Assembly (NCBI GenBank): GCA_016872055.1
Contig: VHBH01000002.1
Coordinates: 62,001 to 126,000 of the forward strand
DNA from: Nitrososphaerota archaeon
GTDB lineage: Archaea; Thermoproteota; Nitrososphaeria; Nitrososphaerales; Nitrosopumilaceae
Length of the DNA stretch: 64,000 bases
Direction of reading: 5' to 3'
Part shown: in pieces, positions 25,506-39,259 of the stretch
Layout of the letters: each line of letters opens with the position of its first letter
Numbering within the stretch: the stretch's first letter is position 1
Notes under the pieces: model-generated
Seen by the model: the letters and a program-made list of their open reading frames with translations, nothing else
Told to the model about the DNA's origin: nothing
Database searches by the model: none
Made by a program: the position numbers and the translations under genes

Positions 25506-26357
25506 TTGGATTCATTTGATTCGAGCCTAATTGAACCAATCGAAATGAGAATGATTAGACCATCCCCATTTGAGGTAAGGCAGAAGATAGACAAAAACGA
25601 TCCTGATTTTAAATCCCTGACAAAGAGCATCAATGAACACGGATTATTGCAGCCGATTCTAATTAGACCAATCCAGCACGGCTTTGAGCTTGTGGCAGGA
25701 TATCGAAGATTTGAAGCATGCAAGACGCTTCGCTGGCGATTTATCCAGTGCAAAATCAGCGATATTTCTGACAAGCAAGCATACGAAATCCAGATTTCAG
25801 AGAACATTCAGAGAAAGGCACTAAACCCAATCGAAGAAGCAGAGGCGTTTAAAAAATATGTAGAAGAATTTGGCTGGGGAGGAATTGCCGAGCTTGCCCA
25901 GAAAATCAACAAAAGTAGCGAATACATTTCGCACAGAATGCAACTACTCAGGCTGGACTCTCTAGCAAGACAACAAATAATTCACAAGAGCATTTCTGCC
26001 AGCCAAGGAATGGAATTATTGGGATTTAGCACACAAGAGCAGCCCGTACTGCTAGATAGAATGCTAAAAGAACAACTCACAGTAAAACAAATGAGAAAAA
26101 TTCGCTCAGAGAAAAAAAATCCTAAAACACTTGATAATAAAATAAAGCCGTGGAAGCTGGCAAGAAAATCGACACTTATTCTCAAAATTACACTAACTAA
26201 AATGGATTCTCTAATTGACGAGGCCAAAAAAATCCAAGATGATAAAAGCCGCAATCAGATGGTATCATATTTGATGGATGCTCGCTATAAAATCCATGAA
26301 ATGATAGACTCTTCACTCAAAGTTCAAAAAGAAAAACTGCGCTCTTCTAGATTATAG
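25506..26357 (+). CDS. ParB/Spo0J-family DNA-binding protein
   Basis: 283 residues from a TTG; the next ATG is at 25545. The N-terminal ParB/Srx domain has IRPSPFEVRQ, GLLQPILIRP and VAGYRRFEACKTLRW. The text ISENIQRKALNPIEEAEAF follows, and the HTH is IAELAQKINKSSEYISHRMQLL. The C-terminal 80 residues are basic and helical. ParB proteins bind centromere-like sites and, with ParA, segregate DNA. No parA is adjacent, and many archaeal ParB-like proteins act as regulators instead. Its stop overlaps by 6 bases the convergent Lrp-like gene. Confidence 0.88.
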   Translation: MDSFDSSLIEPIEMRMIRPSPFEVRQKIDKNDPDFKSLTKSINEHGLLQPILIRPIQHGFELVAGYRRFEACKTLRWRFIQCKISDISDKQAYEIQISENIQRKALNPIEEAEAFKKYVEEFGWGGIAELAQKINKSSEYISHRMQLLRLDSLARQQIIHKSISASQGMELLGFSTQEQPVLLDRMLKEQLTVKQMRKIRSEKKNPKTLDNKIKPWKLARKSTLILKITLTKMDSLIDEAKKIQDDKSRNQMVSYLMDARYKIHEMIDSSLKVQKEKLRSSRL

Positions 26358-26888
26358 AAAAGGTGGCATCCATTCTTTGAGAAAATTCTCGTGCTCTTTT
26401 TTTGTATATGATAATGCGTGCAGTGAAATTGATTTTGTTGGAACAAAGTCGTATACCTGATAAGTCTGAATAATATCACCAAACAAGTTTCGGTAAATGT
26501 CAGTTTCCTGATCTGCTAGCTGCTCTGAAGGAAACGCCCTGACAGTTATCCAGTCAAGACCACCCTTGGTGCTACCAGAAAAAATCACGAAAGGCGCATC
26601 ATTGAGATATTTTTTTAGACTCTCTATTCTTTTTGGCAGTGACTGGGAAATCTTGAATGTCATCAATGTGGTTCTAATTACTCTGGATGGGATCTTTTTG
26701 GGATCCACTGTGATGGTATAATTTGTAATTACCTTGTTCTGGATTAGCTTGTCAATTCTGAATTCAACCTCAAAATTAGTAATCTTATGGTTAAAGCCGC
26801 GGATAAAATCTACAATTTGTGCAGCATCCTGCCTTGCATCCGATGTCAGTGCAGATATGATAAGCTCATCAATTGCGTCTATTTCCAT
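26352..26888 (-). CDS. Lrp/AsnC-like transcriptional regulator
   Basis: About 178 residues from the ATG at 26888; a TATA-like AAATATCTAAAT lies about 26 bases upstream, which favours it over the ATG at 26930. The N-terminal HTH covers IDELIISALTSDARQDAAQI through FEVEFRIDKLIQNKVITNYT. A C-terminal ligand-sensing-like half follows (VIFSGSTKGGLDWITVRAFP). It diverges from the SSS-UspA transporter gene with about 94 bases between starts, so the transporter is a plausible target. The ligand is unknown. Confidence 0.7.
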   Translation of the reverse strand: MEIDAIDELIISALTSDARQDAAQIVDFIRGFNHKITNFEVEFRIDKLIQNKVITNYTITVDPKKIPSRVIRTTLMTFKISQSLPKRIESLKKYLNDAPFVIFSGSTKGGLDWITVRAFPSEQLADQETDIYRNLFGDIIQTYQVYDFVPTKSISLHALSYTKKEHENFLKEWMPPFL

Positions 26889-26981
26889 TACCCCGTAATT
26901 GTATTCTAAATATCTAAATTTTTTCATCATTATTAAAGAGAAAATAGAACGCTTTTTGTATAATACTCACAAATCATCCTA

Positions 26982-29276
26982 GTGTACATACTAGGTGAGC
27001 CTGCAGGATATGCTATTTTGCTAGGGATTGGTTTGCTACTTGCCCTAATTGTGCTAATTGTAGTTAGAATAGAGACGAGGTGGCTAGGAACAAAAAAGAC
27101 TTTTGAGTGGTTCTCTACTGCCGGCAGAACTATCAAGACAGGTCTGCTCATAACATCTGTAGTCTCTGCATGGACTTGGGCTGCAACCCTATTACAGTCA
27201 TCTACCGTTGCCTACCAGTACGGAATTTCTGGACCTTTCTGGTATGCAGCTGGAGCATCAATTCAAGTCATATTATTTGGAATGCTAGCAATAGAGCTAA
27301 AACGCAAAGCCCCTATGACTCATACATTTCCTGAATTAATTAATGCAAGATTTGGCAAGACCCCGCATAAGATCTTTCTTGGATTTGCATTCATGACAAA
27401 TACCATAGTTACCTCGATGCTAATTCTTGGCGGTGCTGCAGTAATTCAGGCCCTTACAGGAATTGATGTCTTTGTTGCATCGTTTCTGATTCCAGTTGGA
27501 GTCATAATCTACACTTTGTTTGGCGGACTAAAGGCGACATTTTATGCAGAATATCTCAATACGGCATTTATCTTTGGAATAATTCTCGTCTTTACTGGAA
27601 TTGTGTATTTTGGAAGCTCTGAAATTGACGGAATTACCGGAATGTATGAAAAACTGAATGCCGCATCTACACTTGCACCAATTCCGGGCAATTCCATGGG
27701 GTCGTATCTTACCATTGCATCACTGGGCGCACTGGCATTTGGAATTATCAACATCATTGGAAATTTTGGAACTGTCTTTGTGGACCAGTCATACTGGCAA
27801 AGGGCCATAGCCTCCAAGCCAAAATCCGTAGTACCGGGATTTGTAATAGGCGGACTTGCATGGTTTGCAATTCCGTTTGCACTGGCAACCACACTAGGAC
27901 TTTCTGCAGTTGCGCTGAACATAGATTTTTCACCACAACAGATTGAATCAGGCCTAGTTGCACCGATTACTGCATCAAGACTATTTGGAGACATTGGAGC
28001 CATAGTAATGGTCTCTGTTTTATTTACTGCTGTTACTGCAGCTGGTGCTGCACAGCTGACTTCGGTATCCTCACTTGCAACATATGATGTGTATCGAACT
28101 TACATCAAACCTTCATCATCTGGCAGAGAACTGATGCGTATCTCTAGAATGGCAATTCTGGGATTTGGCCTTGCCATGGGATTATTATCCTCTGTCTTGT
28201 TTGTATCTGGAATTAGTCTGCAGTATCTTTATCTTGCAATGGGAATTTTCATTGGCTCAGCAGTAGCGCCAATATCTCTGGCAATTTTATGGAAAAAGAC
28301 AAACCGTAAAGCTGCAACACTTGGTGCAACACTGGGACTAGGAATTGGAATTTTTTCATGGCTTGCCACGTCGTTTAGTGTCGGCGGACAGCTAAGCATA
28401 TCTAGCACATCTAATACTGTATCACTTCTTGTAGGAAATGCATCATCCATTCTATCCAGTCTGGCAATTGTTCTAGCCGGCAGCATTGCTAGGCCAGAGA
28501 GATTTAACTTTGAGCAGCTAAGGCACAAAATCATAGTCTATGATGAGAAAATCCGAAACAGAATAGAACAAGAGACAAATGATGCAACCCTGAGAAAATC
28601 CTCTCGCTCTGCAGTCATATATGGAATTTTAATTTCATTAATCATACTAGTTGTAATTCCCGTTCCACTTTTTTTATCAGGATATGTCTTTAGCGAGCAA
28701 TTTTTCTCTATTTGGATTTTCTCTGTGATTTGCTATGTTTTAATTGCAGCATCCCTTGTTTGGTTTGTTCCCTTGTTCCAGTCAAGGCATAGCGTTCAGG
28801 AGGTAATGCGAAGATCAACTGGTTCTCAAAAATACGAAATGGAGTCTGTTCCAAATCCCACAAATGACGAATTTGCGCAAAAAATCCTAATTGCAATTGA
28901 CGGCTCTGCGACATCCGTTAGGTGTCTGAACTATGTCAATTACACACTAAAGGACATGTCTAATGTCAAAGTCTTCATTGCCCACATAATCGAATGGGGA
29001 GATGACTCTGAGAATATTGACGAGGAAACTGTGTCTAAAATCCAGGAACAGGGCAAAATAATGATCCAAAGTATTGTAGTTCCTGCTAGGATCCGACACC
29101 ATGAGCGAATAATACGCCTAGGAGACCCGGCAAAAAAAATTGCCGAGCTTGCCAAGTTGCTGCACGTTGACACCATAGTAATTGGCAAAAAGGGACTGGG
29201 TAATGCGGAATTTATGGGCCATGTGCCGTATTCGCTGCTTGGCCTAACATCAAAACCCGTCGTTTTATTGGACTAG
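26982..29276 (+). CDS. SSS-family transporter fused to a C-terminal UspA domain (candidate urea transporter)
   Basis: 764 residues from a GTG with TATA-like TTGTATAATA about 25 bases upstream. Residues 1-600 form a sodium:solute symporter-type transporter with about 13-14 helices; diagnostic text includes SAWTWAATLLQSSTVAYQYG and GGLKATFYAEYLNTAF. Residues 625-764 form a universal stress protein domain (KILIAIDGSATSVRC, VIGKKGLGNAEFMGHVP). That domain has the G-x2-G-x9-G type nucleotide loop in near-complete form. Location beside urease and resemblance to DUR3-like symporters suggest urea as substrate (inference). The UspA domain may sense ATP or energy state. Confidence 0.85.
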   Translation: MYILGEPAGYAILLGIGLLLALIVLIVVRIETRWLGTKKTFEWFSTAGRTIKTGLLITSVVSAWTWAATLLQSSTVAYQYGISGPFWYAAGASIQVILFGMLAIELKRKAPMTHTFPELINARFGKTPHKIFLGFAFMTNTIVTSMLILGGAAVIQALTGIDVFVASFLIPVGVIIYTLFGGLKATFYAEYLNTAFIFGIILVFTGIVYFGSSEIDGITGMYEKLNAASTLAPIPGNSMGSYLTIASLGALAFGIINIIGNFGTVFVDQSYWQRAIASKPKSVVPGFVIGGLAWFAIPFALATTLGLSAVALNIDFSPQQIESGLVAPITASRLFGDIGAIVMVSVLFTAVTAAGAAQLTSVSSLATYDVYRTYIKPSSSGRELMRISRMAILGFGLAMGLLSSVLFVSGISLQYLYLAMGIFIGSAVAPISLAILWKKTNRKAATLGATLGLGIGIFSWLATSFSVGGQLSISSTSNTVSLLVGNASSILSSLAIVLAGSIARPERFNFEQLRHKIIVYDEKIRNRIEQETNDATLRKSSRSAVIYGILISLIILVVIPVPLFLSGYVFSEQFFSIWIFSVICYVLIAASLVWFVPLFQSRHSVQEVMRRSTGSQKYEMESVPNPTNDEFAQKILIAIDGSATSVRCLNYVNYTLKDMSNVKVFIAHIIEWGDDSENIDEETVSKIQEQGKIMIQSIVVPARIRHHERIIRLGDPAKKIAELAKLLHVDTIVIGKKGLGNAEFMGHVPYSLLGLTSKPVVLLD

Positions 29277-29285
29277 GATAAATTC

Positions 29286-29299
29286 TGCCGACGTCGGCA
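29286..29299. promoter_or_regulatory. 14-base GC-rich palindrome between the two SSS genes
   Basis: TGCCGACGTCGGCA is perfectly self-complementary. It lies 9 bases after the first SSS stop and 37 bases before the TATA box (TTATAT, 29336-29341) of the second. It may be an operator or a short hairpin. Confidence 0.4.
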
Positions 29300-29364
29300 A
29301 AATCGTGTTATATTGATTTTGAGTCCTTCAAAATGTTATATCTTTTGACTTTCTTGAATCTTCG

Positions 29365-31344
29365 ATGAGTGCAAAATTACTGATTGCAACATTATCTGTA
29401 GTCGCAGTAATGGTATTTTTGATTGCACCATCGGCATTTGCAGCGGGCTCTATCTCTGAGGGATTTAAAATCGGCGAGGTCTTGCCGGAATCAATTGGCT
29501 GGTTTATCGTAGTTGGACTGGGCGCAGTTTTCGCCGTTGTCATTTCTCTTGAAATCAAACTCGAAGAGAAATTCTTGGGACATACCCAAACATCAGAGTT
29601 TTTCAACACTGCTGGTAGAACTATAGGAACTGGACTGACTGCAGCTGCAATCGTTTCTGCATGGACTTGGGCTGCAACACTATTGCAGTCATCTACTGTT
29701 GCGTTCCAGTACGGAATTTCCGGACCTTTCTGGTATGCTGCTGGAGCATCAATTCAAGTTCTTCTCTTTGGAATCCTGGCAATCGAGTTAAAGCGCAAAG
29801 CGCCAAATGCTCACACTTTTCTTGAAATTATTCGCGCTAGATTTGGAGACGGGGCGCACCGAGTATTTCTTGTATTTGCACTAATGACTAACATGATAGT
29901 TACTGCAATGCTGCTCCTTGGCGGTGCTGCAGTCGTTAACGGACTGACTGGCATGAACATTTCAATTGCTGCATTTCTAATTCCAATCGGTGTGATGATT
30001 TACACCCTAGTCGGAGGACTTAAGGCAACATTTGTTGCAGATTACATGCACACTATCATAATTTTCGTAGTTATACTGACATTCGTATCTATTGTCTATT
30101 TCATCTCGCCAGTAACTGGAGGATTTGAAGGCATGTATGAAAAACTAGCCAAGGCAGCAGAGCTACGTCCAGTTGAAGGAAACGCAATGGGCGCATACCT
30201 GACCATGGCATCAATGGGCGGACTGATCTTTGGAATAATTAACATTGTAGGAAACTTTGGCACAGTCTTTGTCGACCAGGCTTACTGGCAGAGGGCTATA
30301 GCTGCAAAGCCAAGTTCGACTGTTAAGGGCTTTCTAGTCGGAGGCATGTCGTGGTTTGCAATTCCATTTACCCTTGCAACTACAATGGGACTGACTGCTG
30401 TGGCACTAGGTGTAGTACTAACACCAGAACAGGTCCAGCTTGGATTGGTAGTTCCTGCAGCTGCATCGACACTGATGGGCGAGGTAGGTGCAATAATGGT
30501 TCTAACAATGCTCTTCATGGCAGTAACATCTGCAGGCTCTGCAGAACTAATTGCAGTATCATCATTAATCACATATGATGTGTATAGGACTTATCGAAAT
30601 CCAAATGCTACTGGCAAACAACTGCTCAAAGTATCTCGCAGTGTTATTGTCGGGTTTGGGCTTGGCATGGGTGGCCTAGCTGTCATATTACTAGGACTTG
30701 GACTAAGTCTAGGATTTGTCTATCTGGCAATGGGCGTATTGATAGGCTCTGCTGTAATTCCAATTGCACTAACCATAACATGGAAAAAGACTAGCGGCAT
30801 GGCAGCAGTTATTGGATCAATTGCCGGCCTTGTAATAGCGCTTATTGCATGGTGTGGAACTGCCCTCTCGATGAGTGGCGAGTTATCACTAGCCAGTCTG
30901 GGCGGTAACTATCCAATGCTCTATGGTAATGTAGCAGGAATTATTGCCGGCGGATTAATCTGTATTGCCGGAAGCATTGGAAATAGAAAAGACTATGACT
31001 GGAATGAGATAAGACGCAAGATTACACTTGTTGACATGAAAGCTGAAAGCATTGCAACAGAAGACGAGGCTTCGCTAAGAAAGGCATTCAAGTTTAGTGT
31101 CAGAGGCGGAGGAATCATGACACTAATACTAATTGTAGCATGGCCAATGCCGCTAATTGCAGCAGGCGTTGTGTTCAATGTCCAGGCCTTTACAATATGG
31201 GCAATGACTGCAGTATGCTGGGTTAGCGGTGCAACATTCCTAATTGTCGGCTTGCCCATCATCGAGGGAAGACACGGTATTGGTCGAATAATTAGAAGAC
31301 AAGCTGTTGTCAGTGACGAGCATTCTGGCACAAAGGGTGTATAG
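29365..31344 (+). CDS. SSS-family transporter, paralogue of the preceding gene (candidate urea transporter)
   Basis: 659 residues with a leading signal-like helix (LLIATLSVVAVMVFLIAPSA) absent from its neighbour. The core repeats the neighbour almost word for word in the first helices (SAWTWAATLLQSSTVAFQYG, SGPFWYAAGASIQVLLFGIL). It ends at about residue 640 without a UspA domain. It is a sodium- or proton-coupled importer of the SSS family; urea is the likely cargo given the adjacent urease and DUR3-like style, but this is not proven. A leaderless ATG lies 26 bases after the TATA box, and eight T residues at 31394-31401 form a terminator. Confidence 0.85.
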   Translation: MSAKLLIATLSVVAVMVFLIAPSAFAAGSISEGFKIGEVLPESIGWFIVVGLGAVFAVVISLEIKLEEKFLGHTQTSEFFNTAGRTIGTGLTAAAIVSAWTWAATLLQSSTVAFQYGISGPFWYAAGASIQVLLFGILAIELKRKAPNAHTFLEIIRARFGDGAHRVFLVFALMTNMIVTAMLLLGGAAVVNGLTGMNISIAAFLIPIGVMIYTLVGGLKATFVADYMHTIIIFVVILTFVSIVYFISPVTGGFEGMYEKLAKAAELRPVEGNAMGAYLTMASMGGLIFGIINIVGNFGTVFVDQAYWQRAIAAKPSSTVKGFLVGGMSWFAIPFTLATTMGLTAVALGVVLTPEQVQLGLVVPAAASTLMGEVGAIMVLTMLFMAVTSAGSAELIAVSSLITYDVYRTYRNPNATGKQLLKVSRSVIVGFGLGMGGLAVILLGLGLSLGFVYLAMGVLIGSAVIPIALTITWKKTSGMAAVIGSIAGLVIALIAWCGTALSMSGELSLASLGGNYPMLYGNVAGIIAGGLICIAGSIGNRKDYDWNEIRRKITLVDMKAESIATEDEASLRKAFKFSVRGGGIMTLILIVAWPMPLIAAGVVFNVQAFTIWAMTAVCWVSGATFLIVGLPIIEGRHGIGRIIRRQAVVSDEHSGTKGV

Positions 31345-31425: not shown

Positions 31426-31920
31426 ATGACCTCATGCAACGGCTGCGGCAAGACACTTGGTTTTAAAAAATACAAGTTCAAGAAAATGTGGCGAATCCCC
31501 GGATTTTACTGTCATGAATGCATGATGATAGTGGGCAAGGACTTTGATGACCATGGCAAGCTTACACTCCCTTACAAGAATTGTGATTTATGCAGCGGCC
31601 AGTTTTTGTTTCTTAAGTCAAGATTTCATGCAAAAACGCAAAAACACTTTTGCGATGTATGTGATGAGGTAATTGCATCTGGCGGAATTAAAGAGACTGA
31701 ATCAGGTGTTAAACACGGAAAGATTCCACCGTCATTATTTGTAATTGGCGGCCTAGGAATTGTAATGATGGTTCTTGGAATGATTTTCACAATGTTTAGC
31801 AGCAACGGAGAGCTTAACCTGATGAACTTGTTGTTTGGCTCTACTACTACGGCAATTGGATTTATGCTAATTAGGCGCACAATTAAGAACAAGCGCCTTC
31901 TTGTGAATCAGCTAAAATAA
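31426..31920 (+). CDS. Zinc-ribbon membrane protein, unknown function
   Basis: 164 residues. Four CxxC pairs in the first 90 residues (CNGC, CHEC, CDLC, CDVC) suggest two zinc ribbons. Two transmembrane helices follow (about 104-126, SLFVIGGLGIVMMVLGMIFT; and 132-150, LLFGSTTTAIGFMLIRR). It would present a zinc domain on the cytoplasmic face. A truncated copy lies at 25177-25336, on the far side of the SSS pair. It is convergent with ureC, 2 bases between stops. Role unknown. Confidence 0.7.
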   Translation: MTSCNGCGKTLGFKKYKFKKMWRIPGFYCHECMMIVGKDFDDHGKLTLPYKNCDLCSGQFLFLKSRFHAKTQKHFCDVCDEVIASGGIKETESGVKHGKIPPSLFVIGGLGIVMMVLGMIFTMFSSNGELNLMNLLFGSTTTAIGFMLIRRTIKNKRLLVNQLK

Positions 31921-31922
31921 TT

Positions 31923-33635
31923 CTAAAACAAATTGTACAGTCTTGCTAGAGGCAGCTCCTTTGAAGGACTGCTAGTTGCCTGCTTGCCGTCTATTTTGAC
32001 TAGATAAGTTTCCGGATCAATTTCGATTTTAGGAGTTGCGTCATTTAGTATCATGTCTTTTTTGCCGATTTTTCTGCAATTAGAAACTGGAAGGAATTTT
32101 TTTTCTGTGCTGAGCTTTTCCTCTAGTCCGTTTTCTAGCGCAAGCTTTGATGTAAAGATGAAAGAGGTCGCATTTCTTGCCCTACCCAGTGCACCAAACA
32201 TTGGCTTGTAATACACTGGCTCTGTAGTTGGAATTGATGCATTAGTATCACCCATCAGAGAATATGCAATCATTCCTCCCTTGATTATCATCTTTGGCTT
32301 GGCTCCAAAAAACTGCGGCGACCACAAAATAATATCTGCAATTTTTCCTGGTTCTAGAGTCCCCACATATGATGCAATCCCGTGAGTAATTGCTGGATTT
32401 ATTGTGATTTTTGCAAGATATCGCAGCGCCCTGAAATTATCATTTTCTGATTTTTCATCCTTGTGCCTTCCCAGAGTTTTTTTCATCTTGTCTGCACATT
32501 GCCATGTTCTTGTAGTTACCTCGCCAATTCTGCCCATTGCCTGGCTATCTGAAGACATCATGCTTAGAGCGCCAATATCATGCAAAACATCCTCTGCCGC
32601 AATTGTTTCTGCGCGAATTCTAGATTCTGCAAAAGAGACATCCTCTGGAATTGCGGAATTTAGATGGTGGCAGACCATCATCATATCGAGATGCTCCTCT
32701 AGCGTATTGACGGTAAAAGGCCTAGTTGGATTTGTAGATGAGGGTAAAATGTTAGACTCACTTGCAATTTTCATAATATCTGGGGCATGGCCACCACCTG
32801 CTCCCTCGGTGTGATAAGTATGAATTGTCCTGCCGGCAATTGCTGCAATGGTGTCATCGACATAGCCGCATTCATTTAGAGTATCTGTGTGAATTGCAAC
32901 CTGGGTATCGGTTTTATCTGCAACTCGAAGGGCACAATCTATGGTGGCAGGAGTTGTGCCCCAGTCTTCGTGCAGCTTTAATCCGCAGGCGCCCTCTTTG
33001 ATCTGATCAATTAATGCCATTTCTTGGGAATCATTTCCCTTTCCTAGGAATCCGAAATTCATTGGAAACTCGTCAACTGCCTCTATCATTTTGTGAATGT
33101 GCCATTTTCCAGGAGTGCATGTAGTGGCATTGGTTCCATCAGCAGGTCCTGTTCCACCGCCAATCATTGTGGTAGTTCCGCCGCAAATCGCATCAATCAC
33201 CTGCTGTGGTGCAATAAAGTGAATGTGGGTATCTACTGCACCAGGCGTTGCAATTAGGTGCTCACCTGAAATAATTTCTGTATTTGATGAAATCACAATA
33301 TCTACACCATCCATGATATTTGGATTGCCTGACCTGCCAATCTTTGCTATTTTGCCGTCCTTGATTCCAATGTCTGCCTTGATTATTCCAAGGACTGGGT
33401 CCATTATGATGACATTGGTTATTACAGTATCAACTGATGATTCCCTGAGAACCCCAGATGCCTGTGCCAGTCCGTCGCGAATACTTTTTCCTCCGCCAAA
33501 GACTGACTCATCTCCATAGCCTAAAAGATCTTTTTGAATTTCAATTATGATATCTGTATCTCCTAGTCTTACCTTATCTCCTGTAGTGGGACCAAACAAG
33601 TCGACGTATTTTTTGCGCGAAATTTCCAAAGTCAT
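31923..33635 (-). CDS. ureC: Urease alpha subunit UreC
   Basis: 570 residues, catalytic subunit that hydrolyses urea to ammonia and carbamate. The di-nickel site is intact: DTHIHF (two His), the carbamylated lysine in [10 protein letters not shown], the histidines in [13 protein letters not shown] and [12 protein letters not shown], and the Asp in [11 protein letters not shown]. The catalytic flap text VCHHLN is present. ATGA-type overlap with ureB. The ammonia feeds the ammonia-oxidation energy pathway and assimilation. Confidence 0.98.
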
Positions 33636-34003
33636 GCCCCCCTGAATCCCTCTTTTTTTGCCCTCTCTATTGCCTCAGATTTTTTCTCAGCTAGTGAACC
33701 ATTTACCAGCCCGCTAAACCCAAAGACAATTTTTTTCCCGCCATACTCTACTAGCTGGACTTTTTTTTCCTCACCTGGCTCAAATCGAACCGATGTTCCA
33801 GCTGCAATGTTTAGGTGAAATCCATAAGAATCAACGCGTGCAAATTCCAAGGCCTTGTTTGATTCAAAAAAGTGAGTATGCGAGCCCACCTGAATCGGCC
33901 TATCGCCAGTATTTTTGACTAGAACTGTCAGCGTTTTTCGGTTTTGGTTTGCCAGAACCGGCTTGTCAGATATGAAATATTCTCCTGGTATCATTATTCT
34001 CAC
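33632..34003 (-). CDS. ureB: Urease beta subunit UreB
   Basis: 123 residues. Structural subunit, recognisable from [18 protein letters not shown] and the long conserved [20 protein letters not shown], with [20 protein letters not shown] after it. It overlaps ureA upstream and ureC downstream by four bases each, so the three subunits are translated in step. Confidence 0.96.
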
Positions 34004-34302
34004 ACTATGGGATCATGGATTGTGACCAGCTTTGTGCCGTCATTAAATGTAGCCTCTACTTGTACAGTATGAATTAGTTCGGGAACTCCGGGAAGGACGT
34101 CGTTTTTAGTCAATACACTTCTACCTGAGCTCATCAGCTCTGATACTGACTTGCCGTCCCTTGCCCCCTCTACAATATGATCTGTTATTATTGCAACTGC
34201 CTCCGGGTGATTTAATTTCAGTCCGCGCGACTTTCTTCGCCTTGCAAGCTCGGCAGTTAAGAAAATGTGAAGCTTGTCAATTTCACGCGGAGTCAAAAAC
34301 AT
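34000..34302 (-). CDS. ureA: Urease gamma subunit UreA
   Basis: 100 residues. Family text is evident: [51 protein letters not shown], and [19 protein letters not shown]. First gene of the leftward ureABC operon. TTAAATAC on the minus strand, centred near 34327, is 25-26 bases before the ATG, giving a leaderless transcript. It diverges from ureE. Confidence 0.97.
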
Positions 34303-34390
34303 AGAAAAACTTGTCTAATCTTGTATTTAATAATTAATTCAAATCCAAATCGGCAATAAGTATATCTTGCAAACTTGGACACTAACACCG

Positions 34391-34888
34391 TTGCAAAAGG
34401 TAAGAAAAATCGCTGGAAATATTTTCCAAGACACAAATCTCTCAAAGAAATTTGAAAACGGCACTGGTAATCTAATTTACAAAACAATTCTAATGCAAAG
34501 AGCGAACCTAGAGAAAACCCGCCAAAAGATCAATTGCACCGACGGGACTAGCATTGGAATTAGTCTAGATAATGAGCGCAAAATTCACAATGGTGATGTC
34601 CTACAAGGAGACGACATTATGGTTTTAGTCAAGCAAATGCCTGAAACCGTAATGAGAATAAATCTTGCATCATTAGAGCCAAAGCACCTTGTGACTTTGG
34701 GGCACATGATTGGAAATTTGCACAAGCCAGTATCTGTCCAGGATGAATCTGTATCAATTCCGGTAAAATCAGAAATCGAAATTGACTTTATCAAGACCAT
34801 ATTTCGCGAATTCTTTGACAGGGCGGAATTTAAAATAGAGGAAAAGATCTTTGAGCCTTCAAAATTCATGGATTCCCATGAACACTGA
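34391..34888 (+). CDS. ureE: Urease accessory protein UreE
   Basis: About 165 residues. Nickel metallochaperone that delivers Ni2+ to the UreG/UreF/UreD complex. The N-terminal domain begins KVRKIAGNIFQDTNL. The C-terminal metal-binding domain has LGHMIGNLHKPVSV, with the conserved histidine, and ends SHEH instead of a long His tail. I chose the TTG at 34391 over the TTG at 34367: it gives the usual UreE N-terminus, and GTATATC at about 34359-34366 lies 26 bases upstream. Overlaps ureF by 11 bases. Confidence 0.85.
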   Translation: MQKVRKIAGNIFQDTNLSKKFENGTGNLIYKTILMQRANLEKTRQKINCTDGTSIGISLDNERKIHNGDVLQGDDIMVLVKQMPETVMRINLASLEPKHLVTLGHMIGNLHKPVSVQDESVSIPVKSEIEIDFIKTIFREFFDRAEFKIEEKIFEPSKFMDSHEH

Positions 34889-35570
34889 TATCGTAACACT
34901 GGGGCTAATGCAGCTCTCTGATTCGTTTTTTCCAACCGGCACTTATACAATGTCACACGGGCTGGAAATGCTTCATAGAAAAAAAATCATCACAACACCA
35001 GAGCAGACTCGACAGCTAATAGAGGCGCTATTATCAAACCAGGTGGGACCTGCCGACTGTGTTGCGCTAAATAATTCCTATGATTGTGCTAAAGAGGCAA
35101 ATATTTCCGGACTGGTAGAAATTGACTGGAAAATTCACAGAATGCGCCTAGTGCAGACACAACGCGAGGCATCTGCTAGGGCAGGAGGACAGCTGATCAA
35201 ATGTGTAATTGCAATGGGTAATGACTTGACTGTAAAAAAATTCCACGAGCAAATTCTAGAAAATAAAACACCTGGCACCTATCCTGTATGTCTTGCACTT
35301 GCAGGGCAATTCCTTGGAATATCAAAAAATAACACATGTCTTGCACTAATGTATGGATTTACTGTAGGAGTGCTAGGTGCTGCAATGCGGCTAGGAATCA
35401 TACAGCATACTCAGAGCCAGCAAATTCTCTCTGAAATTAGGCCAATAATATCAGAGCAAGCATCAATGCATAGCAATACCGGAATAGATCAAATGTGGCA
35501 ATTTATTCCGTATGTTGAAATTTTCCAGATGCATCATGAAAAACTTGAATCAAAAATGTTTGTGACATGA
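34878..35570 (+). CDS. ureF: Urease accessory protein UreF
   Basis: 230 residues from the ATG at 34878 (frame open to 34851). All-helical accessory factor. Conserved LQLSDSFFPTGTYTMSHGLE-like start (here LMQLSDSFFPTGTYTMSHG) and RMRLVQTQREASARAGGQLI. It bridges UreD and UreG during nickel insertion. ATGA overlap with ureG. Confidence 0.93.
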   Translation: MNTDIVTLGLMQLSDSFFPTGTYTMSHGLEMLHRKKIITTPEQTRQLIEALLSNQVGPADCVALNNSYDCAKEANISGLVEIDWKIHRMRLVQTQREASARAGGQLIKCVIAMGNDLTVKKFHEQILENKTPGTYPVCLALAGQFLGISKNNTCLALMYGFTVGVLGAAMRLGIIQHTQSQQILSEIRPIISEQASMHSNTGIDQMWQFIPYVEIFQMHHEKLESKMFVT

Positions 35571-36223
35571 CCACTATACAAAAAATCCCACGAGTTGGAA
35601 TTGGCGGGCCTGTGGGCTCTGGCAAAAGCATGCTAATCGAGAAAATAGTGCCAGTAATTGCAGCTAAAGGCTATAGAATCTGCGTAATTTCTAATGATGT
35701 TCTATCCAAAGAAGACGCGGATAGAATTCGAAAAAACCTTGCAACCACGCAGGGAATACTGCCAGAAAACATGGTAATTGGAATTGCAACGGGGGGCTGC
35801 CCTCATACTGCAATACGAGAAGACCCATCAATGAATTTGGCAGTAATTGAGGAAATAGAGCGCAACAACCCAGAACTTGACCTTATCATACTAGAAAGCG
35901 GAGGGGACAATGTAATGACTACATTTAGTCCTGCACTGGCAGACTATTTTATTTACATAATTGACGTATCTGGCGGGGACAAGTATCCGCGAAAGGGAGG
36001 CCTGGGAATTGAATCCTGTGATTTGCTTGTAATTAACAAAACCGACCTTGCACCACTAGTCCATGCAGATCTTTCTGTAATGGAAAAAGATACCATAAGA
36101 ATTCGTAAGCTAAAGCCATTTGTATTTGTCAACTGTATGGATGGAAGTGGAATAGAAAAAACGGCATCGCATATAATTGAGGATCTCTTATTTGATGAGC
36201 CACCCAGGAGTGCAAAAAATTGA
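35567..36223 (+). CDS. ureG: Urease accessory GTPase UreG
   Basis: 218 residues. SIMIBI GTPase that powers nickel insertion. P-loop GIGGPVGSGKSMLIE; the metal-binding CPH motif in GGCPHTAIREDPSMN; LESGGDNVMTTFSPALAD; guanine specificity VINKTDLAP. Overlaps by 4 bases with ureF and ureD. Confidence 0.96.
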   Translation: MTTIQKIPRVGIGGPVGSGKSMLIEKIVPVIAAKGYRICVISNDVLSKEDADRIRKNLATTQGILPENMVIGIATGGCPHTAIREDPSMNLAVIEEIERNNPELDLIILESGGDNVMTTFSPALADYFIYIIDVSGGDKYPRKGGLGIESCDLLVINKTDLAPLVHADLSVMEKDTIRIRKLKPFVFVNCMDGSGIEKTASHIIEDLLFDEPPRSAKN

Positions 36224-37110
36224 GTGTTTCTGAGAATTGGATGCCTGCAGAATTTGCTAAATTTGAGCAAAACCCACAAATTCAAAAAACCGGAATGCTG
36301 AAGCTTGTACTGCACAAAGACGAGGAAAAGAAAAAGACCATAGTTTTGCACCAGTATTCCAAGGCGCCGCTTTTGACGCAAAAGGCGCTGTACTATGACT
36401 CGGATAATCCATCAATGGCGTATTTGTTTTTAATGTCATCCTCTGGAGGCGTTCTGCAAGGGGACAGATATGAAATCAAAATTTCACTAGGCCAAAATGC
36501 AATTGCAAATATTACTACACAGGGCGCAACGCGAATCTACAAAATGGAATCAGACTATGCAAGCCAAAACATTGAGCTAGAGATAGGAGATGATGCATAT
36601 CTGGAAATGCTGCCAGACCAGATAATTCCGTATGCAAATTCTAGGTATTTCCAGCACGTCAATCTTTCAGTCGGAAAAAACTCCACTGTAGTATATTCAG
36701 AAATTATATCTCCTGGTAGGGCTGCAAGAGGCGAGTTATTTGACTATGAAATGTGTTATTTGAGATTTGTTGCAAAAAACTCGGTAGGAATGAAATTTAC
36801 TGATATATCGCGCCTAGAGCCAGGCGCTGATAAATTTGCCAATACTGCAATACTAGGAGGGAATTCTGTCTTGGGCACAATGTATGTTATAACGGAGAAA
36901 AAAAACCACACAATATCTGAGCAAATCCGTTCTATATTGGAAAATTCCGAACCACTGTGTGGATTTTCATTTTTGCCTGGGGACTCTGGAATTGTAATTA
37001 GGATTCTGGGAACTAGTCCAGAACAAATCAAGGCAATTTTTGTGCAAATAATTAAAATTATTAGAAATCAGATTCTGGGCTCTACGCTAGGTGAGTTGAG
37101 AAAAACATGA
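36220..37110 (+). CDS. ureD: Urease accessory protein UreD/UreH
   Basis: 296 residues from a TTG overlapping the ureG stop (TTGA); an ATG at 36241 is the alternative. Scaffold that holds apo-urease for nickel loading. Typical UreD text: SSSGGVLQGDRYEIKISLGQ, NITTQGATRIYKME, YLEMLPDQIIPYANSRYFQ, and EIISPGRAARGELFDY. Overlaps the next gene by 4 bases. Confidence 0.93.
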   Translation: MSVSENWMPAEFAKFEQNPQIQKTGMLKLVLHKDEEKKKTIVLHQYSKAPLLTQKALYYDSDNPSMAYLFLMSSSGGVLQGDRYEIKISLGQNAIANITTQGATRIYKMESDYASQNIELEIGDDAYLEMLPDQIIPYANSRYFQHVNLSVGKNSTVVYSEIISPGRAARGELFDYEMCYLRFVAKNSVGMKFTDISRLEPGADKFANTAILGGNSVLGTMYVITEKKNHTISEQIRSILENSEPLCGFSFLPGDSGIVIRILGTSPEQIKAIFVQIIKIIRNQILGSTLGELRKT

Positions 37111-37673
37111 CAGAGCTGGATCAAAACCAAATCAAGATTTTAGGAATAATTGATGAGCTTGCCCCAAGCATAGGGGTAATACAAAAAAGGACTAGACTGG
37201 ATGCACAAAAAATAGAACAAGACGTAGCGATGCTTGAGAAAAACGGCATGATATCTAAAATTCACTCTAGAGGATTTTTTGGTAATTCCAAGATTGTATT
37301 GCATACTAGCCAGTCAGGCAAGGACGAGCTAGCAAAACACATACAGAACCTCAAAGACCAATGGGGGCAAATAATAAAAATTGCAGCTGAAAATGGCAGG
37401 TCTGGCCTTGATGAATTTGCCCGCAAGAACCCTGGAATTGTAAATCTGATGATCTTTTTTGGAATTATTGATCTGGCAACTCTTAGTAGGCTTAATCTCA
37501 GGCACCTAATTAGTGCCAACACTCCTTGCTTTATTTGCAAAAAGGAACTGGATCTAAAGTTTATGCAAAAATTCACCGTCAAGGAAATCATAAAGTGCCA
37601 ATTTACTGTTCCTTATTCCATGACTGAATCTGATCATTTATGCGCTGACTGTTTTGATAAGCTGGGAAAATAA
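37107..37673 (+). CDS. Winged-helix plus zinc-ribbon protein coupled to the urease accessory operon
   Basis: 188 residues. The N-terminal 75 residues look like a winged helix (QIKILGIIDELAPSIGVIQK, DAQKIEQDVAMLEKNGMISK, then a wing with FFGNSKIVLHTSQSG). A middle helical part (85-130) follows. The C-terminal part has two cysteine pairs, CFICKKELDLKF and LCADC, consistent with one metal site. Its ATG overlaps the ureD stop in an ATGA, so it is made with UreEFGD. No urease accessory family matches. A nickel- or zinc-sensing regulator of urease is a reasonable hypothesis, not a demonstrated role. Confidence 0.7.
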   Translation: MTELDQNQIKILGIIDELAPSIGVIQKRTRLDAQKIEQDVAMLEKNGMISKIHSRGFFGNSKIVLHTSQSGKDELAKHIQNLKDQWGQIIKIAAENGRSGLDEFARKNPGIVNLMIFFGIIDLATLSRLNLRHLISANTPCFICKKELDLKFMQKFTVKEIIKCQFTVPYSMTESDHLCADCFDKLGK

Positions 37674-37960: not shown

Positions 37961-39259
37961 CTACTGGAAAAGCACTGATCTTCTAAACATCATAACAGCT
38001 GCAAAAGCCGAACCGAGGACCAGAATTACGAGTGGGCCGAACTCTGGGACGACCATTATGGTAAATTCGGTTCCCTGGCCTGTTCCGCGCAGATTATTAA
38101 ATTGGATTGTAGTCTGACCTTTCTGTGATTCTGTAAAGGTATAGTCTGCATAGTCCCCGCCAATCTGAGCGTTTGCAGATTTTTTGTACAATTCTTTTCC
38201 GTTTTGTAATATCACAAAGTCGTACGATGTGTTTCGGAGCAGCTCGCCTGTCTTTCCGTCCCTGAAGGTATAGATGAATTTGGTGTTCTTGCTGGGCTCT
38301 ATTGTATCTGGTTCCCAAGACATGTCCACCTGAAGTGATTCGTCCTTTGTCATTGCAATTACTGGAAAGACTATCTTATCGCCTACCTTGAGCTCAAACT
38401 TCATTCCCAGTGGATTTTCAATTCCTGCGCTTTTTTGCGCCTGCTTGAGATATCGTATGGTGTCCTGTGTTAGGACAAAGTGGACTACTCGCTCGTCTTC
38501 TATGGAATAATCGTCTATTGTTACTGACGACTTGAAGAGATCTATTCCGTTTACAGTGCCTGAATAGCTGGGTACCATAAAGTCCGCAAACTCCTTTGGA
38601 AAGTGAATCTCTTCGTGTACCACCTCAGTATGAGAAATGTTTCGCTCGCTCCACTCAAACGGCATCTCTAGCATTATGGAGTTTGTCTCAGGAGAATAAT
38701 CAAAGCCTGAAACCCCATCATAATATGACTTGACACGAAATTCTACGGGGGTTCCATCCTTACCTTGCTCATCATAGTAATGGTTTGTAATTGATGTAAT
38801 ATACGTGGAAAAAGCTTGGTTTTGCAGCTCGTTAGAATCAAGGCTCTTTATGTCTACGTCAAAGCGGTATAGTCCTCCGGAATTTAGGATTGGGCCAGAA
38901 ATCTGTATTGGGTCTGTTCCTGATATTTTTATTTCCAGGTCTTGTGTTGGGTTTACATTTATTCTTAGTATGCCGTTTTTGGTGGCAAACGATTCTCTGA
39001 AAATTTGGCCTCCCTCATGATACAGCGCAACTAGCAATATCGCATCGACGTTTTGTGTTGTAAGAGAATCTGTTACCGTCATGATTATCTGTTTTTGTGC
39101 AGACTCGGAAAATTCTGTAGGGATGATTTGTGTGGTAACGGAAATCTTTCTGTCTTCAACGTTTAGCGATATTGTCTCAAGGCCTAGTCCGTGACCATAT
39201 GTTTTGGTAATTGGGAATATGATTAAACATATGATGAAAAATGTGGTTGCTACTTTCAA
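37961..39259 (-). CDS. Exported protein with PEFG-CTERM sorting signal
   Basis: 432 residues from a TTG. Signal peptide (about 1-22, FFIICLIIFPITKTYG) then GHGLGLETISLN at the mature start. Beta-rich body. The C-terminus is a PEFG sorting signal: VVPEFGPLVILVLGSAFAA, then MMFRR, the thaumarchaeal substrate of an archaeosortase-type enzyme. The middle (VKSYYDGVSGFDY, MPFEWSERNISHTEVVHEEI) is homologous to the protein at 60681-62321. Surface-attached; function unknown. A 14-base-arm hairpin lies 39 bases before the start. Confidence 0.8.
   Translation of the reverse strand: MKVATTFFIICLIIFPITKTYGHGLGLETISLNVEDRKISVTTQIIPTEFSESAQKQIIMTVTDSLTTQNVDAILLVALYHEGGQIFRESFATKNGILRINVNPTQDLEIKISGTDPIQISGPILNSGGLYRFDVDIKSLDSNELQNQAFSTYITSITNHYYDEQGKDGTPVEFRVKSYYDGVSGFDYSPETNSIMLEMPFEWSERNISHTEVVHEEIHFPKEFADFMVPSYSGTVNGIDLFKSSVTIDDYSIEDERVVHFVLTQDTIRYLKQAQKSAGIENPLGMKFELKVGDKIVFPVIAMTKDESLQVDMSWEPDTIEPSKNTKFIYTFRDGKTGELLRNTSYDFVILQNGKELYKKSANAQIGGDYADYTFTESQKGQTTIQFNNLRGTGQGTEFTIMVVPEFGPLVILVLGSAFAAVMMFRRSVLFQ

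Follow-up and report, generated by a model that had tools for sequence, protein, structure and literature searches.

Gene X at the end of the urease accessory operon

We asked which role is played by a gene, here called X, that closes a urease accessory operon and looks like no accessory gene itself. X is found at positions 37107-37673 (+ strand) of the window, i.e., the whole stretch of 64,000 nucleotides that was analysed, from an ammonia-oxidising archaeon, and encodes 188 aa with an ATG start; an alignment and an AlphaFold2 model describe it as a winged helix, a long helix and a four-cysteine (C4) domain. Our best reading, unproven and in our view with about an even chance of being right, is that of a fast-evolving transcription regulator, specific to its lineage, that acts on the urea cluster around it (urease and SSS-family transporters). 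The gene itself, the selection on it, its linkage to the cluster, a conserved intergenic region and the co-occurrence of X with a motif are shown here; the fold is predicted, and that X binds DNA, forms a dimer and holds zinc is inferred, as are its target and its signal.

The preceding genes on the same strand are ureE (34367-34888, with a TTG start at 34367 or 34391; Pfam UreE_N), ureF (34881-35570; PF01730), ureG (35567-36223; TIGR00101 above cut-off, Pfam cobW/UreG) and ureD (36220-37110; PF01774). The ATG of X overlaps the ureD stop codon in an ATGA (37107-37110, + strand), which is also kept in G356, a genome of the same genus. Since genes matching UreE, UreF, UreG and UreD precede X and the next downstream gene (37961-39259) is on the opposite strand, X is the terminal gene of this operon. 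Overlap and terminal position had both been claimed by an earlier note on this DNA and are confirmed, as is its view that X is unlike the urease accessory families: X stays below the cut-off of every Pfam and NCBIfam family, none of the UreD, UreE, UreF and UreG profiles matches, and a sequence search of the PDB returned nothing significant.

On the other side of ureE, ureABC (31923-34302, - strand) are open reading frames named by sequence recognition and operon context rather than by profiles; their order is conserved in relatives. The cluster further comprises an SSS-family transporter (29365-31344, + strand; Pfam SSF), whose substrate we infer to be probably urea. Positions 31426-31920 encode a conserved protein with four CxxC pairs, whose hydrophobic tail probably spans the membrane and for which no Pfam family reaches cut-off; its gene and ureC converge in clusters with X, and in Nitrosopumilus-type clusters it comes after the transporter. 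A ParB-like gene, an Lrp-like gene and a further SSS transporter with a universal stress domain fused to its C-terminus make up a unit (25506-29276) that is kept beside urease in several genera of ammonia-oxidising archaea (AOA). The Lrp/AsnC-like gene (26352-26930, - strand) is divergent from this second transporter and owes its label to sequence appearance, its product having no Lrp match in Pfam.

The X proteins of the window and G356 share 64% identity, which makes X the least conserved protein of the urea cluster, yet clearly constrained. Given a dN/dS of 0.136 for this pair, X is a real gene under purifying selection. The window's genome also carries a decayed fragment (G000:C4:67480) that resembles residues 25-88 of X and contains stop codons. 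This genome therefore probably once held a second copy of X.

Distribution and genomic setting

We searched 400 genomes of the order and found full-length X in 19 of them, namely the window's genome, G356 and 17 Nitrosopelagicus genomes (genus g9). UreD is present in 17/19 X-bearing genomes compared to 150/400 overall (Fisher 2e-6, relatedness ignored), and G291, with ureABC at a contig edge, raises the number of urease carriers to 18/19; in G397, also X-bearing, the contig ends in a transporter. Urease genes adjoin X on the same contig in 14 of the 19 genomes, and the remaining five contigs end in neighbouring transporter genes. Across all 400 genomes, full-length relatives are thus found only beside urea-use genes of AOA, and X is for this reason probably a local regulator of urea use.

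The position within the cluster differs between lineages. X directly follows ureD in the two congeneric genomes (the window's and G356), whereas in Nitrosopelagicus it occupies the far end of this urea cluster, either divergent from an SSS transporter, a neighbour in many of these genomes, or adjoining the ParB-like gene. X is therefore linked to the urea cluster and not to ureD. That is, the claim that X is locked to ureEFGD holds for the strong association with urease genes and fails for the fixed place, and homologues do not always follow ureD. Moreover, X is absent from 20/20 other AOA urease-region loci sampled, which counts against a regulator of the urea cluster; among these X-less loci are three of the window's own genus and that of G264, the only sampled Nitrosopelagicus genome that has a full urease cluster but no X.

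We rejected the idea that X arrived on a urease cluster transferred from Nitrosopelagicus, since the UreC and UreG trees group the window with its own genus. An X-like copy beside the window's ParB-like gene, i.e., at the Nitrosopelagicus position, was sought and not found. Nor do we claim a viral origin, as the sole IMG/VR match (L183, IMGVR_UViG_3300006346_000021) has a truncated X beside cellular genes: this sequence, classed as viral, joins dUTPase-like, Hsp20-like and methylmalonyl-CoA mutase-type genes with the truncated X and is either an insertion adjoining X or an assembly chimera.

Some further observations concern single loci. An X gene in a MAG labelled Pelagibacteraceae (L053, JAESSC010000129.1) most likely stems from a contaminating archaeal contig. 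Just before X of Nitrosopelagicus ends a short conserved reading frame of ~46 codons (L044:10058-10335 and equivalents), which probably encodes one membrane helix and looks frame-shifted in G365. A one-contig genome of the Nitrosopelagicus genus (L107, G096:C1:508000-527900) retains an isolated ureD-like gene; no further urease genes were detected in its vicinity.

Predicted fold and modular composition

For the AlphaFold2 model of X, a 12-sequence alignment was used as input, yielding a mean pLDDT of 81.5. The model places a winged-helix domain at residues of about 6-68 (37122-37310, + strand), with helices 6-18, 22-29 and 33-45 and a two-strand wing 49-67. It continues with a long helix 69-95 and a helical linker to residue 125 (37311-37481, + strand), and further helices reach residue 128. 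The remainder (37482-37670, + strand), delimited by conservation and as a recurrent module, holds an LSRLNLR segment and the small cysteine domain (C141, C144, C179, C182).

The top PDB structure matches from Foldseek are PadR/MarR winged-helix proteins with a marginal E of about 1e-3, among them the Listeria transcription factor 6abt. Given this E value, X belongs with PadR/HxlR/MarR regulators at the level of the fold only, i.e., it shares the winged helix followed by a long helix. It differs from them by its extra C4 domain and by an acidic, poorly conserved recognition helix, and the respective profiles do not match X above their curated cut-offs and match its relatives only weakly. Helix 33-45 of the model is the presumed recognition helix; by analogy with PadR/MarR folds, helix 69-95 with the linker is presumed to be the dimerisation part.

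Residues 5-129 of X are homologous to a winged-helix protein that most genomes of the family encode and whose gene adjoins birA in 10/12 copies checked. The copy in the window's genome (G000:C1:74922) passes the Pfam cut-offs for HxlR, HTH_34 and wHTH-PRTase_assc, HxlR being a cut-off that X itself does not pass. X and this paralog are about 26% identical over residues 5-129, in an alignment that is nearly gap-free through the FFGI segment, and the X sequences form one clade separate from the paralog. In place of the cysteine domain, the paralog has a Gly/Asp-rich tail, and it is widespread in the family with no link to urease, whereas X is bound to urea clusters. In one copy (L002:1450-2034), a hydrophobic stretch is rich in methionine and the Gly/Asp-rich tail ends in DIGF. 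The model together with the Pfam matches of the paralog bears out what the earlier note had read as an HTH-like N-terminus ahead of two C-terminal cysteine pairs, and the predicted fold is of the DNA-binding kind, where a fold of another character would have spoken against the note's proposal. Homologues away from urease loci would have done so too; here, full-length X stays with urea genes and the winged-helix half has its relative next to birA.

The C4 domain recurs in AOA as well, either as standalone proteins of 55-61 aa or fused to other regions, outside X always in the absence of a winged helix. Residues 139-184 of X fit the module CxxC...P...D-x2-C-x2-C by alignment and HMM matches. Over 16 proteins with this module, six positions are invariant (C, C, P, D, C, C) and no His is; no Pfam family reaches its cut-off for the module, and Foldseek with the C4 domain of X alone gives no significant match. 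Because the module recurs in unrelated proteins with no conserved His, the C4 domain of X is probably a structural zinc site.

Within X, conservation is highest in the C-terminal half, i.e., in LSRLNLR and the C4 domain. C141/C144 and C179/C182, two CxxC pairs standing 34 residues apart, are invariant in 12/12 aligned sequences, and residues 126-148 are 97% identical within Nitrosopelagicus. The presumed recognition helix, on the other hand, is acidic and the least conserved part, with 33% identity between the window's genome and G356 and 11% to Nitrosopelagicus. This pattern fits either co-divergence with an operator or a protein that acts mainly through its C-terminal half, and it counts against X as a regulator that reads DNA.

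The latter case would make X a protein-binding factor, e.g., a small TFE-type factor or co-regulator that acts via RNA polymerase or another regulator instead of a DNA sequence. Archaeal TFE (TFIIE-alpha) consists of a winged helix followed by a zinc-binding domain, and X shows the same gross order; the paralog even has a sub-threshold TFIIE_alpha match. In contrast, no TFIIE_alpha profile matches X or its relatives, the cysteine spacing differs from that of TFE, and a basal factor is not expected to be as sparsely distributed and confined to urea clusters as X is. We thus consider a protein-binding factor rather unlikely, albeit the best of the alternatives.

Candidate regulatory DNA

If X is a regulator of the urea cluster, the divergent intergenic region between ureA and ureE (34303-34390) is a candidate target, given its conservation in G356. 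Its core of 48 bases (34321-34368) is identical at 46/48 positions between the window and G356, compared to 52.5% identity at 965 fourfold sites of neighbouring genes. Part of this conservation is due to TATA boxes. Both genomes have extra bases between two TATA-like elements, which congeners without X lack.

A near-perfect palindrome with core CTGCCGACGTCGGCAA is located just before the SSS gene (29282-29303) and conserved in G356. Neither genome has a second sequence that closely matches it, and six other genomes of the genus have no counterpart with fewer than two mismatches. The palindrome may be an operator or a terminator hairpin, the latter because it starts a few bases past a stop codon and is followed by a T run in G356.

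In Nitrosopelagicus, a different motif, TTRGCACTAT, is found repeatedly in front of ureE, of the transporter genes and of the ParB-like gene. We count 29 occurrences in 299 kb of X-bearing Nitrosopelagicus loci versus 0 in 311 kb of X-less urease loci, where counting was done in the region of discovery, several genomes are near-identical, a single X-less locus is from Nitrosopelagicus, and taxonomy is confounded with X. Genome-wide, the motif barely exceeds its reversed control (101 vs. 90 matches in 16 X-bearing genomes), yet 28/101 matches are within the urea neighbourhood. The window contains one match in its 64 kb, outside the ureA/ureE intergenic region, and the motif is absent from the window's urea promoters, which counts against X as a regulator of the cluster. 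Recognition helix and candidate operator both differ between the window's genus and Nitrosopelagicus.

The motif also bears on whether the Lrp-like protein of 26352-26930 is the real regulator of the cluster, with X doing another job. One TTRGCACTAT site is located in the divergent promoter of the Lrp-like gene. This gene lies close to the second transporter not only in Nitrosopelagicus but also in several X-less genera, and is therefore more widespread than X. However, the motif is present in six loci that carry X but no Lrp-like gene nearby, and missing from four that carry the Lrp-like gene but not X. That is, TTRGCACTAT follows the presence of X more closely than that of a local Lrp-like gene, and we regard the Lrp-like protein as an improbable candidate, behind a protein-binding X.

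Proposed role of X

Two further roles are very unlikely, and to a similar degree. As a urease maturation factor or metallochaperone, X would work with UreD or UreG, in line with its cysteine pairs and its translational coupling to ureD in two genomes; against this, X of Nitrosopelagicus sits apart from ureD on the transporter side, other sampled urease loci lack X, and the protein combines a winged-helix fold with no conserved His. The sensing of Ni or Zn through the cysteine pairs to switch ureABC, as suggested in the earlier note, draws on four invariant cysteines, the nickel dependence of urease and the existence of metal-sensing winged helices (AdcR, ZitR and CzrA are among the weak matches), but is left unsupported, since these matches are to winged helices of a generic kind, two CxxC pairs typically form a structural zinc site and are shared here with standalone and differently fused proteins, and only the four cysteines are invariant in X, with no conserved His, i.e., a distinct set of regulatory metal ligands (His/Cys/Asp) was not found.

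For X as a regulator of the urea cluster, we propose that the long helix would pair two molecules and that the winged helix would contact promoters within the cluster. In the window these would be in the divergent region between ureA and ureE, and in Nitrosopelagicus at sites of the TTRGCACTAT type. The C4 domain would hold a structural zinc, a partner protein or ligand would dock on its conserved surface, and co-transcription with ureEFGD would provide feedback. Control of ureABC by X is plausible. More tentatively, and with clearly less than even confidence, X may represent a new regulator dedicated to the uptake and hydrolysis of urea in AOA that arose by fusion of a winged-helix core with a mobile C4 module, and in which helix and operator co-diverged between Nitrosopelagicus and the window's genus.

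Marine AOA draw on urea as an important source of nitrogen. In the literature searched, we found no description of a dedicated regulator of their urease genes. Under copper limitation, Nitrososphaera viennensis induces both the urease operon and its transporters for urea when no urea is supplied and ammonium is available (PMC7785015), and thus some control system exists in AOA. X provides a testable protein together with candidate DNA sites for the control of urea use in part of the AOA, including Nitrosopelagicus.
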